From NCBI GenBank assembly GCA_019192445.1, contig JAHCMK010000003.1, positions 372,001 to 436,000 of the forward strand: a stretch of 64,000 bases of DNA, in the 5' to 3' direction. Within the stretch, counting starts at the first letter, position 1; the number at the start of each line of letters is the position of its first letter. Of this stretch, positions 43,840 to 48,236 are shown piece after piece. The notes beneath the pieces are model-generated. The model worked only from the letters and a program-made list of their open reading frames with translations, had not been told where the DNA came from and ran no database searches. A program made the position numbers and the translations under genes. This DNA is from Oceanococcus sp. HetDA_MAG_MS8 (lineage in GTDB: Bacteria; Pseudomonadota; Gammaproteobacteria; Nevskiales; Oceanococcaceae).

Positions 43840-43868
43840 GCGGGGCTGATTTGCCCTACGGCCCGCCC

Positions 43869-45071
43869 ATGTCCGCCATTAAAAAAGTCGTTCTTGCCTA
43901 TTCCGGAGGTTTGGATACCTCGGTCATTCTGAAATGGCTGCAAGATCAATATCAATGTGAGGTTGTGACTTACACGGCCGACCTGGGTCAGGGCGAAGAA
44001 GTCGAAGAAGTCCGCCCTAAAGCTGAGGCGCTAGGGGTTAAAGAAATCTTCATCGATGATGTGCGCGAAGAGTTTGTTCGCGACTACGTCTGGCCGATGT
44101 TTCGCGCCAACGCCATCTACGAAGGCGAATATCTCTTGGGGACCTCTATCGCGCGGCCGTGCATTGCGCGCAACATGATCGAGGTAGCACGCAAGACCGG
44201 CGCCGATGCCATTGCTCACGGCGCCACCGGTAAAGGCAACGATCAGGTGCGCTTTGAGCTTTGCGCCTACGGTTTAATGCCTGACATCAAGGTCATCGCA
44301 CCCTGGCGTGAGTGGGATCTGAACTCCCGAGAGCGTTTGCTGGCCTATGCCGCAGATCACGGTATTCCTATCACCAAGAAAAAAGATGGCAGCTCGCCTT
44401 ATTCCATGGATGCGAACTGCCTGCATATTTCTTATGAAGGGGAAGAGCTGGAAGATCCGTGGACGGCCCCGAAAGAGGACATGTGGCGTTGGACCACGAG
44501 CCCACAGCAGGCGCCGGATGAACCCGAGGACATCACGCTGGGCTTTGTTGCCGGTGATGCAGTGAGCTTGAATGGGGAGCCAATGAGCCCCTTTGGCATT
44601 TTGGACCGGCTCAACGCACTGGGTGCCAAACATGGTGTGGGGCGTATTGATATCGTCGAAAATCGCTACGTGGGCATCAAATCGCGGGGGGCTTACGAAT
44701 CCCCAGGTGGAACCATTTTGCTCAAAGCACACCGGGCCATTGAGTCTATTACTTTGGATCGGGAAGCCGCCCACCTCAAAGATTCCCTCATGCCCAAATA
44801 TGCAGAGGTGGTGTACAACGGCTACTGGTTCGCGCCGGAACGCGAGGCCCTGCAGGCGCTGATCGACCGAACCCAGCACTGCGTGAATGGCGAGGTGCGG
44901 CTGCAGCTGTATAAGGGCAATGTGATGGTGACGGGCCGACGCTCCGAAACACATTCCATGTTCGACGCCGCCATTTCCACCTTCGAGGATGATCGCGGCC
45001 GTTATGACCAAAAAGATGCGGACGGCTTCATTAAGCTGAATGCGCTGCGGTTGAAGCTGGCGAAACGCTGA
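43869..45071 (+). CDS. argG: argininosuccinate synthase
   Basis: Arginine-synthesis enzyme of 400 residues that joins citrulline and aspartate with ATP. The ATP pyrophosphatase motif is [18 protein letters not shown], followed by [24 protein letters not shown] and the C-terminal [12 protein letters not shown]. Length is normal for the short (non-E. coli) class. An upstream TTG at 43851 is in frame, but the ATG at 43869 matches the family start. Two further genes follow closely on the same strand. Confidence 0.97.
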
Positions 45072-45073
45072 CT

Positions 45074-45583
45074 ATGGCCACCCCGGATGCGCAAGAGAAT
45101 CCGCTTGCGCGCAATCTCCATTGGGCCCTGACCCTGTATACCGTTTTCGTGCTGGCTCAAAGCTTGGCTTTTAAGTTTCTAGGCTCGGCCGAGACGGTGT
45201 ACATCTTTGAGACCGTGCTCGACGGCTGGGCGGCGCAATGGGGTGCCGAGGGTTTGTTCGCAACCGGTGGGGCCTTGTCGGCAACCACCATTGCGGGCTT
45301 AGAGCTTTGCGCAGCGCTCATGTTGTTGATCGGCGCTATGCATCCGCGCTTGCGGGCGGTGCAGGGTTTAGGCGCTGTGCTCGCGTTGGTGTTGATTGTG
45401 GGGGCGTTGGGCCTGCATTTGTTGAGCCCGTTGGGCGTGGTCGTGCGCAGCCCCGAAGGCACCGGCGATGGTGGCACCTTATTCATCATGGCTTGTGGCG
45501 TCGCCCTGGCCTGCAGCGTACTCACCTGGATGCGGCGTGAGGACCTAGGGAGCCTGCTGCACTTTGGGCGCCGGCGCTCCTAA
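45074..45583 (+). CDS. DoxX-like four-helix membrane protein
   Basis: Small inner-membrane protein of 169 residues with four hydrophobic helices (about 16-35, 68-88, 95-117 and 134-151). The first helix region WALTLYTVFVLAQSLAFKFLGSAETVYIF resembles the DoxX/SURF-like family in which helix 1 is followed by GxxET. The function is unknown; the DoxX fold is sometimes linked to quinone or thiol reactions. It begins three bases after argG and overlaps or abuts the GNAT-C39 gene. Confidence 0.75.
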   Translation: MATPDAQENPLARNLHWALTLYTVFVLAQSLAFKFLGSAETVYIFETVLDGWAAQWGAEGLFATGGALSATTIAGLELCAALMLLIGAMHPRLRAVQGLGAVLALVLIVGALGLHLLSPLGVVVRSPEGTGDGGTLFIMACGVALACSVLTWMRREDLGSLLHFGRRRS

Positions 45584-46718
45584 AACGCCAGCGCCAGTGA
45601 CCGTCAGGCAGGCCACGCTGGCGGATGCCCACGCTTTGGCCTCGCTAGAGCAGGCCGTGTTTTCCAGTGACCGGCTGAGCCTGCGTCAGTTCAAGCATCA
45701 CCTACGCAGTGCGCATGCCGAGCTATGGCTGGCTGAGGATGATGTAGGTGTGCTCGGCTATGGCTTGGTGCTTCTGCGTCGCGGCACCCGGTTGGCCCGC
45801 TTGTATTCGCTAGCAGTGGACCCGCGCGCTCGGGGCCAAGGTATTGCCGGCCGACTGCTGCAAACGCTAGAGCACCAAGCCCGTCAGCGTGGCCGCGTTG
45901 ATTTGCGCCTGGAGGTGGCCCAAAACAATCTCAGTGCTCAGGCCTTGTATATCCGTCATGGCTACCAGCCATTCGATGTATGGAGCGACTACTACGCTGA
46001 TCACCAAGCTGCGGTTCGTATGCAGAAGCGGCTGCACCGCTCACATCCGAATGAGTCGGCAATCAAAGTGCCTTGGCTGGCACAAAGCACAGAATTTACC
46101 TGTGGCCCTGCGGCGTTGCAGATGGCCCTCGCGGCCTTGCAGCCTGGGTATACGGCCAGCCGCACCGCCGAGCTGCAACTGTGGCGGGAGGCCACCACCA
46201 TTTTTATGACCTCTGGTCATGGAGGCTGTCACCCCATTGGTCTGGCTCTTGCGGCCCATGCACGGGGGCTACACGCCCAAGTGTGGCTGAGTACTGCCGA
46301 GGCGCTGTTCGTGGATGGTGTGCGCCAGCCAGACAAAAAAGAGGTGTTGGACATTGTCCACCAGCAGTTTGTGGAGCAAGCCCAGCAGCAGTCGATTGGT
46401 ATTGAATACGCGGTGCCCAGTCCGGATCAGGTTAGGCAATGCTTAAGTGAGGGAGGGCTCTGTTTGGCACTCATCAGTACCTGGCGCTGGGACCGGCGTA
46501 AGGCACCGCACTGGGTATTGTTGGTTGATGCGGATGAGCATGGCCTTTACGTGCATGACCCCGATGGGGACGAGCACGACCCCGGCGGTATTGATGCCGC
46601 GCAAGTGCCGCTGGCGTGGTCAGACTTTTTGTCGATGGCCAGTTACGGCCGGTCCAAACTACGTGCGTATGTGATGCTACATGCGCAGGCCTCGCAGTCG
46701 CCCACCCTTGAGGCCTAA
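45564..46718 (+). CDS. GNAT acetyltransferase fused to C39-like peptidase
   Basis: Two-domain cytoplasmic protein of 384 residues. Residues 1-155 are a RimI-like acetyltransferase with the acetyl-CoA loop LYSLAVDPRARGQGIAGRLL. Residues 165-380 are a papain-fold peptidase domain of C39 type, with C180 in STEFTCGPAALQMA, H316 in PHWVLLVD and D332 in VHDPD. No ABC transporter is attached, so it is not an exporter. The start is TTG at 45564 or GTG at 45597; neither has a strong ribosome site. It faces a RLAN/ATP-grasp ligase gene 51 bases away. Such a pairing suggests synthesis and trimming of a modified peptide. Confidence 0.85.
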   Translation: MGAGAPKTPAPVTVRQATLADAHALASLEQAVFSSDRLSLRQFKHHLRSAHAELWLAEDDVGVLGYGLVLLRRGTRLARLYSLAVDPRARGQGIAGRLLQTLEHQARQRGRVDLRLEVAQNNLSAQALYIRHGYQPFDVWSDYYADHQAAVRMQKRLHRSHPNESAIKVPWLAQSTEFTCGPAALQMALAALQPGYTASRTAELQLWREATTIFMTSGHGGCHPIGLALAAHARGLHAQVWLSTAEALFVDGVRQPDKKEVLDIVHQQFVEQAQQQSIGIEYAVPSPDQVRQCLSEGGLCLALISTWRWDRRKAPHWVLLVDADEHGLYVHDPDGDEHDPGGIDAAQVPLAWSDFLSMASYGRSKLRAYVMLHAQASQSPTLEA

Positions 46719-46721
46719 GTA

Positions 46722-46737
46722 TTGAGCCAAGGCTCAA
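46722..46737. terminator. palindromic hairpin between convergent genes
   Basis: TTGAGCC-AA-GGCTCAA, four bases after the stop of the GNAT-C39 gene. It lies between convergent genes and could terminate both transcripts, but no T-run follows. Confidence 0.4.
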
Positions 46738-46769
46738 GCCTGCAACCAGGGTCGCGCCAGGAGAAAGCC

Positions 46770-48236
46770 TTATGACGGGCGCCCCCGGCGTTCCAGGCGC
46801 CGGGCAAACTCACTCATGATCTGCATGTAAAGCTCCTGGCCTAAATACGCATCTTCAATCCCCTGGTCTAGGCTGGGATTGTCATTCACCTCGATCACGT
46901 AGGCACGACTGCCATGTTGTTTGATGTCGATCCCGTACAGCCCGTCGCCGATCATCCTGGCGGCGCGCAGGGCGGCATCCAAGACAACCTTCGGTGTTTC
47001 AAAGGTGGCCAGGGTGGTGAAGCCGCCACTATCGGTGCCGCCCTCGCTATGGGCGTAGATCTGCCAGTGGTTGCGCGCCATGAAATATTTGCAGGCGTAG
47101 AGAGGGCGGTGGTTCAGAACGCCAATGCGCCAGTCGAATTCGGTATACAAATACTCCTGCGCGAGCACCAGGGCTGAGTCCTGCAGCATGGCCTTGAGGC
47201 TGCGCTCTAACTCCTGGCGAGTTTCCACTTTGCAGACACCTCGGGAGAAGGAGCCGTCTGGAATCTTCAGCACCAGTGGCAAGCCCAGCTCTTGGATGAG
47301 TTGCTCAGCCTGATCGACGCGGTCGACGATGCGGCTGCCTAGGGTCGGCACGCGGTTATAGCTGAACGCGTCTTGGAGGAAGACCTTATTGCAGCAGCGC
47401 AAGATGGATGTTGGGTCATCCATCACCACCAGCCCCTCAATTTCTGCCTTGCGCGCGAATTGGTAGGTGTGGTGGTCAATAGCGGTCGTCTCGCGAATGA
47501 ACAGAGCGTCGAACTCCCCCACGCGTGCATAGTCATTGGCGTGAATCCGCTCCACTGCAAAGCCCACTTTTTCGGCAGCTTTCTCGATGCGTTTCAGCGC
47601 CGCTTCATCACTGGGTGGTAATTGCTCTTCTGGGTTCACCAGCAGTGCAAGATCCCAGCGTTGCAGCTTTCGCGCGCGCGGACTGCGCCATAGCCTGTGT
47701 GAGAACTCTGCCACCAAATTGCGCGCCCAGGCTTGCTCGGTGGCATCCAGATCAGCCAGAGACAGCAAACGGATGTCGCGAATATCCCAGCGTGTGGAGT
47801 AATGCATCTCTACTTGCAGTAGAGGGGCGGGAAAACGCTCGAAGAGCTGGCGGCTCAGGGTCTTCCAGCGGGGGTCTGTGGTTTGTCCTAAACAGATGGT
47901 GATGCGCTGGCCATGTTGGCCAGACTCGGGTTGCTCGCCCTTGGGCAGCTTGAGTCCGCTGCGCTGCGTCTGCAGCAAGGTCAGCGAGGGCGAGCGTAGG
48001 TCGTTCAAGGTGTTCACCGAGGGTAGAACCCGGTGACCACGGGCCTCTGCTAGCAAAGAGCAGTAATAGCCGGTGCTCAAATAACCCAGCGACGAACACA
48101 GGTTAATGATGCGTGTTTTCCGTTCGCCGCGAATGGGGTGCTCGGCCAAATATTGAGCGAAGCTGATGATGTTGTCGCCCCCAGAATCGGGGCCCCATTG
48201 GGTGGGGTCATCGACCACCAAGAAGGTGCGGCTCAT
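46770..48236 (-). CDS. RLAN-domain ATP-grasp ligase, RimK-like
   Basis: Predicted carboxylate-amine ligase of 488 residues. The N-terminal half (about 1-190) has the RLAN character: FLVVDDPTQWGPDSGGDNI, INLCSSLGYLSTGYYCSLLAEARGH. The C-terminal half (about 200-485) is an ATP-grasp domain with VFLQDAFSYNRVPTLGS, LVLKIPDGSFSRGV, and the metal site in EVNDNPSLDQGIED. RimK adds glutamate to ribosomal protein S6, but this is a distinct, larger family whose substrate is unknown. It begins seven bases after a thioesterase gene and faces the GNAT-C39 gene. Confidence 0.85.
   Translation of the reverse strand: MSRTFLVVDDPTQWGPDSGGDNIISFAQYLAEHPIRGERKTRIINLCSSLGYLSTGYYCSLLAEARGHRVLPSVNTLNDLRSPSLTLLQTQRSGLKLPKGEQPESGQHGQRITICLGQTTDPRWKTLSRQLFERFPAPLLQVEMHYSTRWDIRDIRLLSLADLDATEQAWARNLVAEFSHRLWRSPRARKLQRWDLALLVNPEEQLPPSDEAALKRIEKAAEKVGFAVERIHANDYARVGEFDALFIRETTAIDHHTYQFARKAEIEGLVVMDDPTSILRCCNKVFLQDAFSYNRVPTLGSRIVDRVDQAEQLIQELGLPLVLKIPDGSFSRGVCKVETRQELERSLKAMLQDSALVLAQEYLYTEFDWRIGVLNHRPLYACKYFMARNHWQIYAHSEGGTDSGGFTTLATFETPKVVLDAALRAARMIGDGLYGIDIKQHGSRAYVIEVNDNPSLDQGIEDAYLGQELYMQIMSEFARRLERRGRPS

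Follow-up and report, generated by a model that had tools for sequence, protein, structure and literature searches.

An RLAN ATP-grasp ligase paired with a GNAT-papain-fold fusion in Oceanococcus: one form of a recurrent ligase cassette with a candidate role in N-capped peptide metabolism

The described systems closest to the locus analyzed here are the ligase RimK with its partner RimB, the N-acetylglutaminylglutamine amide (NAGGN) synthetase Ngg, the carrier-protein ligases LysX and ArgX, the acetyltransferases RimI, Ard1, and NatA, and the RloA-RloB-RloC operon of Pseudomonas aeruginosa. The locus lies in a 64,000-nucleotide stretch of Oceanococcus sp. HetDA_MAG_MS8 (contig JAHCMK010000003.1, positions 372,001 to 436,000; here called the window) and consists of gene A, which encodes a GNAT acetyltransferase fused to a DUF3335 (C39-like papain-fold) domain, and gene B, which encodes an RLAN-type, RimK-like ATP-grasp ligase (Table 1). 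Gene B shares the ATP-grasp fold and conserved catalytic residues with RimK but carries RLAN as an additional N-terminal domain and misses the RimK cut-offs. It also has the fold of LysX and ArgX (Z score, ~27), whereas it is accompanied by a GNAT partner, and no recurrent LysW-like neighbor was seen at cassettes of this type. Similarly, the GNAT domain of gene A has the fold and the catalytic residues of RimI, Ard1, and NatA but is fused to DUF3335 and scores below the RimI cut-off. Ngg combines N-acetylation with peptide-bond formation, its product being the osmolyte NAGGN (PMC8070244). Together with AsnO and a peptidase (TIGR03103), Ngg follows the same logic of GNAT, ATP-grasp ligase, and hydrolase, but one Ngg protein holds both the GNAT and the ligase, whereas here they are encoded by two genes that also contribute RLAN and papain-fold domains. 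The Rlo operon likewise pairs an ATP-grasp enzyme with a peptidase, but it has an aspartic protease and an inactive transglutaminase instead of a GNAT and a papain fold (PMC12239564).

The families of genes A and B were strongly associated. Among 299 genomes drawn from the phylum Pseudomonadota, 56 had RLAN, 47 had DUF3335, and 46 had both (Fisher test, P = 4.5e-43, without correction for phylogeny), and for 44 of the 59 RLAN hits, a DUF3335 hit was located no more than 6 kb away. These 44 pairs comprised 26 with DUF3335 upstream on the same strand, 13 divergent pairs, 3 with DUF3335 downstream on the same strand, and 2 convergent pairs, one of which is that of the window. The pairing of genes A and B is not accidental, and the counts support a conserved functional pair. 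The original prediction, made from the letters of the window, had proposed an acetyltransferase fused to a papain-fold C39 domain with a Cys-His-Asp set, lying tail-to-tail with an RLAN-type RimK-like ligase, and had named the co-occurrence of the two families as a check. Both gene assignments were confirmed at exact coordinates, with 51 bp between the two stop codons, and the check came out strongly positive, 46 of the 47 DUF3335 genomes also having RLAN.

Reading of individual loci showed which part of the pair is constant. A scan of named genomes gave at least 586 relatives among the matches listed, the best 80 of which were kept, and 115 RLAN loci were read out of 120 fetched (L066 to L185), the five without an RLAN gene being excluded. 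A GNAT adjoined the ligase in 105 of the 115 loci, with the C39 domain in 66 (67 including the window) and without it in 39; one GNAT-C39 gene that is incomplete at a contig end (L103) was counted as GNAT-C39. All four relative orientations of GNAT and ligase occurred: including the window, 70 of 106 cassettes were divergent, 17 had the GNAT downstream and 15 had it upstream on the same strand, and only 4 were convergent, so that the tail-to-tail layout of the window is a rare one. A GNAT was the divergent partner even for a ligase with only 33% identity to that of the window, and all 10 of the 299 genomes with RLAN but without DUF3335 had a stand-alone GNAT beside the ligase. The invariant partner of the ligase is thus the GNAT, and the peptidase half is not part of the core; C39 is optional, since the GNAT-only loci keep both ligase and GNAT. 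The original prediction had suggested that acetylation, ligation, and cleavage are combined. That the two genes are a conserved functional pair is upheld by the co-occurrence, whereas C39 cleavage as an essential core step is rejected by the 39 GNAT-only loci, and in some loci the GNAT itself is replaced.

Such a replacement was found on a Legionella adelaidensis plasmid (L187; 41 to 3232), where the ligase is followed by a gene of glutamate-cysteine ligase family 2 (GCS2) and then by a gene of the N-formylglutamate amidohydrolase (FGase) family, without a GNAT; the beginning of the RLAN domain is missing from the annotated ligase (match starting at model position 48). A class-wide search with the Legionella ligase matched 80 of 369 genomes, and 20 of the 80 were read (the 17 with the ligases most similar to that of Legionella and 3 others). 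GCS2 followed the ligase in 14 of them and an FGase-family gene was present in 13, the loci coming from 11 family codes (L221 to L236); no GNAT, C39, or DUF2817 was found near these 14. A Pfam scan confirmed GCS2 in four of four proteins and FGase in three of three, the Legionella ones included. Neither Legionella gene had a match in the 120 loci L066 to L185 at an E value of ≤1e-4. With Legionella, there are 15 loci of this second type (type II) in which GCS2 takes the place of the GNAT, mostly with an FGase-family gene (14 loci). They require two changes on the tree, which is compatible with one origin.

A further accessory gene was seen beside some of the C39-containing cassettes. DUF2817 (PF10994) adjoined 15 cassettes in L066 to L185, all with C39, versus none of the 39 GNAT-only cassettes (P = 8.5e-4 for 67 rows with C39, without correction for phylogeny). 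Of four DUF2817 proteins scanned, one just reached the AstE_AspA_cat profile as well (25.2 bits versus a cut-off of 25), making DUF2817 a candidate AspA/AstE-like deacylase. DUF2817 is also carried by L070, the upstream flank of which is cut.

The distribution of C39 was compared with trees of the ligase and of the GNAT domain, the ten RLAN loci without an adjacent GNAT being given no state. On the ligase tree, the GNAT-C39/GNAT-only label required 12 changes, 9 of which are forced by branches with good support; 5 changes were required for orientation. On the GNAT-domain tree (151 columns; 51 of 106 inner branches weakly supported), the same label required only 3 changes (1 forced). Six pairs of sister ligases were checked, and in four of them the GNATs were distant from each other (ranks of 70 to 94 out of 105); GNAT and ligase distances were still correlated (r = 0.65 for 106 loci; permutation maximum, 0.09). 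The 12 versus 3 changes and the distant GNATs of sister ligases weaken a simple model in which C39 was repeatedly lost from one GNAT lineage. Because of the different numbers of changes on the two trees, we infer with moderate confidence that the two GNAT classes were exchanged between ligase lineages or were differentially lost from an ancestor that had both, as L090 does with its GNAT-C39 and its stand-alone GNAT.

The conserved residues and predicted structures indicate what the encoded enzymes may do. Gene A scored 60.9 bits against Acetyltransf_1 and 266.9 bits against DUF3335 ("Peptidase_C39 like"; cut-off, 25), and its AlphaFold model had a predicted local distance difference test (pLDDT) value of 92.3 and a predicted template modeling (pTM) score of 0.88. 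For gene B, the scores were 149.4 bits for RLAN (cut-off, 25) and 38.4 bits for the RimK ATP-grasp profile (cut-off, 21), with a pLDDT value of 88.3 and a pTM score of 0.75 for the model; with RLAN over the cut-off and followed by an ATP-grasp core, the protein belongs to the RLAN ATP-grasp family. The alignments for structure prediction contained 57 of the 80 ligases and 41 GNAT-C39 loci, near-duplicates and incomplete ones being left out. The result lists of the fold searches were filled by the GNAT and ATP-grasp parts, and the fold matches cover these two parts. The best PDB matches of the GNAT half were Ard1 (Z score, 23.2; 147 residues; 1.6 Å), RimI (Z score, 23.0; 147 residues; 2.1 Å), and NatA (Z score, ~23). 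Residues E117, Y129, Y143, and Y144 of gene A align with the E, Y, and YY residues of the RimI of the same genome, and E117 was present in all 67 GNAT-C39 rows and all 39 GNAT-only rows; of these 106 rows, 104 had Y129, 106 had Y144, and 94 had Y143, with Phe in 12 GNAT-only rows. Both of these pairs, Glu/Tyr and YY, have functions in catalysis and in the binding of peptides in RimI and Naa enzymes. By its fold and by both residue pairs, this half is an N-alpha-acetyltransferase-type (RimI/Ard1) GNAT.

The ATP-grasp half matched RimK (Z score, 28.2; 273 residues; 2.5 Å), with LysX and ArgX at Z scores of ~27. Seven residues were invariant in 58 rows (alignment A4), namely, K284, K324, D368, R370, D437, E449, and N451; they fall in stretches aligned with RimK, and their predicted roles are in ATP and metal binding. 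In the C39-like domain, the papain-type triad is C180-H316-D332. The Cys and the His were invariant in both alignments (A3, 19 rows; A5, 42 rows); the Asp was invariant in the 42 rows and replaced by Glu in 7 of the 19. The profile score over the cut-off and these three residues place the domain in the DUF3335/C39-like family (PF11814); peptidase activity is a prediction. A GHGGC motif (amino acids 218 to 222 of gene A; window positions 46215 to 46229) is also strongly conserved in this domain and brings a second Cys: all five residues were invariant in A3, and in A5, G218 and G221 were invariant and the others were conserved at ≥90%.

Association, GNAT and ATP-grasp folds, the optional C39, and the replacement of the GNAT by GCS2 were established by computation. 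Each cassette type combines an RLAN ligase with an amine-capping enzyme and often with a hydrolase candidate, and on this basis we infer that an N-capped peptide or conjugate is synthesized and recycled. In our judgment, there is about an even chance that the gene pair represents a variant of an RLAN ligase cassette for making a small N-capped peptide or amino-acid conjugate and that the cassette can also degrade this product. As its fold and residues suggest, the GNAT domain would acetylate an amino acid or short peptide at the alpha-amine. The RLAN ATP-grasp enzyme would activate a carboxylate with ATP and couple it to an amino acid through the amine of the latter, a type of reaction known from RimK, LysX, and ArgX. 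The candidate N-acyl or peptide hydrolases that often join the cassette (C39, DUF2817, and the FGase family) may represent turnover; the optional C39-like domain, with DUF2817 in relatives, would be the turnover or trimming side. In type II, GCS2 may be the amine-capping enzyme, forming a glutamyl amide in the place of the GNAT reaction. By analogy, the logic would match NAGGN synthesis by Ngg, which also joins N-acetylation to a peptide bond. The accessory genes (DUF2817, GCS2, and the N-formylglutamate amidohydrolase family) are more in line with metabolites of the N-acyl amino acid or peptide type than with a protein tail.

A protein target has to be weighed against this. The RLAN ligase could extend the C terminus of a specific protein in the manner of RimK, with the GNAT acetylating its N terminus as RimI does and C39 trimming the added tail. 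Proteins are the targets of the enzymes with the nearest folds (S6 for RimK and S18 for RimI), and in the rim system, the RimB protease takes off what RimK adds (PMC12239564). However, C39 is missing from the 39 GNAT-only loci with ligase and GNAT kept, the small-molecule families GCS2 and FGase replace both GNAT and C39 in type II, no third, target-encoding gene is conserved beside the cassette, and the genome of the window already has rimK, RimB-family, and rimI genes. We therefore consider such a posttranslational modification rather unlikely, a ribosomal-protein substrate for the gene pair being no more than a possibility.

The scores against curated profiles bear on the same question. Gene B fell below the RimK cut-offs (76.1 versus 143.4 bits for TIGR00768 and 43.7 versus 331 bits for PRK10446), and the genome has a separate true rimK (480.6 bits, over the cut-off) that is immediately preceded by a RimB-family gene. 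In view of that pair, gene B is unlikely to glutamylate S6, and a mutant of the locus is unlikely to show S6 glutamylation only. Gene A scored 77.8 bits versus the RimI cut-off of 86.4, and with another, better-scoring RimI present in the genome (110.8 bits), gene A is unlikely to be its RimI. With the NAGGN synthetase profile TIGR03103, gene A reached 26.9 bits, through its GNAT part only, versus a cut-off of 569, and gene B was not among the matches; since a true NAGGN synthetase (815.7 bits) is encoded elsewhere in the genome, the pair is unlikely to perform NAGGN synthesis itself. Because rimK-rimB, rimI, and NAGGN synthetase genes are already present in the genome and because genes A and B miss the curated cut-offs, the two are probably a separate system. 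A second RimB-family (PF05618) gene, with an ATP-grasp-like open reading frame (ORF) ~1.7 kb off, was seen at G000:C3:338233-340468, where it resembles an rlo-type locus.

Several observations weigh against a role of the pair in N-capped peptide metabolism. Of the 115 loci, 10 have no GNAT next to the ligase; in five of them, a contig end lies close by, and four (L068, L069, L141, and L168) lack a GNAT in flanks of ~6 to 10 kb and are true exceptions. A P. aeruginosa plasmid copy of the ligase (L186; 6911 to 8500) has no GNAT within ~6.9 kb. DUF2817 occurs in 65 of the 299 genomes, often without RLAN, which makes its link lineage dependent, and the genome of the window has only weak partial matches to it (25.2 and 24.3 bits). 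RimI/Ard1-like GNATs act on protein N termini, which keeps a protein or ribosomal target possible, and the step from cassette to product is drawn from genes and predicted structures.

Some atypical copies of the two families were also seen. The ligase stands alone in an Alcanivorax-type clade (L141, L142, L168, and L169); the L168 genome has a GNAT-C39 gene on another contig, close to that contig's end. The ligase on the P. aeruginosa plasmid is located near glutamate/aspartate transporter and ggt genes and, by this gene context, is presumably PA1345. As an experimental lead, PA1345 was rejected: the CpxR site given for it is a predicted one that was not found by DNA affinity purification sequencing (DAP-seq) (PMC12802237). 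DUF3335 copies without an adjacent RLAN ligase (G197:C15, G274:C39, and G008:C2) matched mainly in the C39 half.

The neighbors of the window pair suggest another explanation. argG, a small gene without a Pfam match (membrane-like by eye), and gene A are tightly spaced on one strand (window positions 43851 to 46718), and this spacing suggests co-transcription. With argG just upstream on the strand of gene A (43851 to 45071) and LysX and ArgX among the top folds (Z scores, ~27), the pair could protect an amino group in amino-acid biosynthesis, as ArgX and LysX do with LysW, or catalyze an unusual N-acetylglutamate-type step. However, argG and four other window neighbors had no match at an E value of ≤1e-4 in the 120 loci L066 to L185, where the BLAST positive control found the ligases; argG is thus not conserved near other cassettes and was rejected as a partner, and a recurrent LysW-like neighbor was not found at the cassettes. 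We regard this explanation as improbable.

An even smaller likelihood is given to tailoring like that of ribosomally synthesized and posttranslationally modified peptides, in which the ligase and the C39 domain would act on a precursor peptide encoded elsewhere. C39 peptidases fused to ABC transporters cut off leader peptides in other systems (PMC10318531), and the graspetide ligase PsnB was at rank 44 of the Foldseek list. However, no family of small intergenic ORFs within 3 kb of the ligase spanned more than one lineage, the largest clusters (seven loci each) all being from one close-knit Marinobacter clade, and the ligase had no phage match at an E value of ≤1e-20. The absence of an evident precursor gene nearby, already remarked on in the original prediction, was borne out by this search and by the 51-bp gap, which is too short for one.

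Table 1. Features of the gene pair in the window
Feature	Positions	Strand	Description
Gene A, GNAT + DUF3335 (C39-like papain-fold) fusion	45564..46718	+	384 amino acids, TTG start
GNAT domain of gene A, amino acids ~10-160	45591..46043	+	N-alpha-acetyltransferase type; E117, Y129, Y143, Y144
DUF3335/Peptidase_C39-like domain, amino acids 169-372	46068..46679	+	PF11814, 266.9 bits
Cys180 codon	46101..46103	+	Presumed nucleophile; invariant in 19/19 and 42/42 rows
His316 codon	46509..46511	+	Invariant in alignments A3 and A5
Asp332 codon	46557..46559	+	Invariant in 42 A5 rows; Glu in 7/19 A3 rows
Convergent-stop gap, 51 bp	46719..46769		Too short for a precursor gene
Gene B, RLAN-RimK-like ATP-grasp ligase	46770..48236	-	488 amino acids
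RLAN domain of gene B, amino acids 27-170	47727..48158	-	PF14401, 149.4 bits; profile match only
Pre-ATP-grasp + ATP-grasp core of gene B, amino acids ~194-485	46782..47657	-	RimK/LysX/ArgX-like

The N-capped peptide reading of the pair can be extended to the whole family. Tentatively, and with less confidence than for the pair itself, we suggest that RLAN ligases could be the hub of a widespread, unrecognized N-capped peptide pathway in Pseudomonadota with three interchangeable partner sets: GNAT-C39 (often with DUF2817), stand-alone GNAT, and GCS2 with an FGase-family hydrolase. If so, the interchange would imply one constant ligase product with a varying cap and a varying recycling enzyme, and a small molecule common to many marine and soil bacteria would still be undescribed. 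Partner exchange also offers a handle on the chemistry, in which a single peptide ligase is combined with an acyl- or glutamyl-capping enzyme and with a candidate N-acyl amidohydrolase. Relatives of gene B are annotated as "RimK family," a label that suggests ribosome modification, whereas the evidence speaks for a different system in about one-fifth of the sampled Pseudomonadota genomes (56 of 299). Iyer et al. reportedly predicted in 2009 RimK-like ligases near GNAT-papain fusions (ATP-grasp/GNAT/GCS2 amidoligases). DUF3335-GNAT fusions are already in print (PMC10318531). A literature search, with most subscription papers outside its reach, gave no experimental study of RLAN ligases, of DUF3335-GNAT fusions, or of the DUF2817 link.

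Two minor features of the loci may be added. For gene A, a GTG codon at 45597 is as possible a start as the TTG at 45564. Six of the 80 named loci (L077, L080, L090, L109, L124, and L136) have a DUF155 (RMND1/Sif2-like) gene no more than 3 kb from the ligase.

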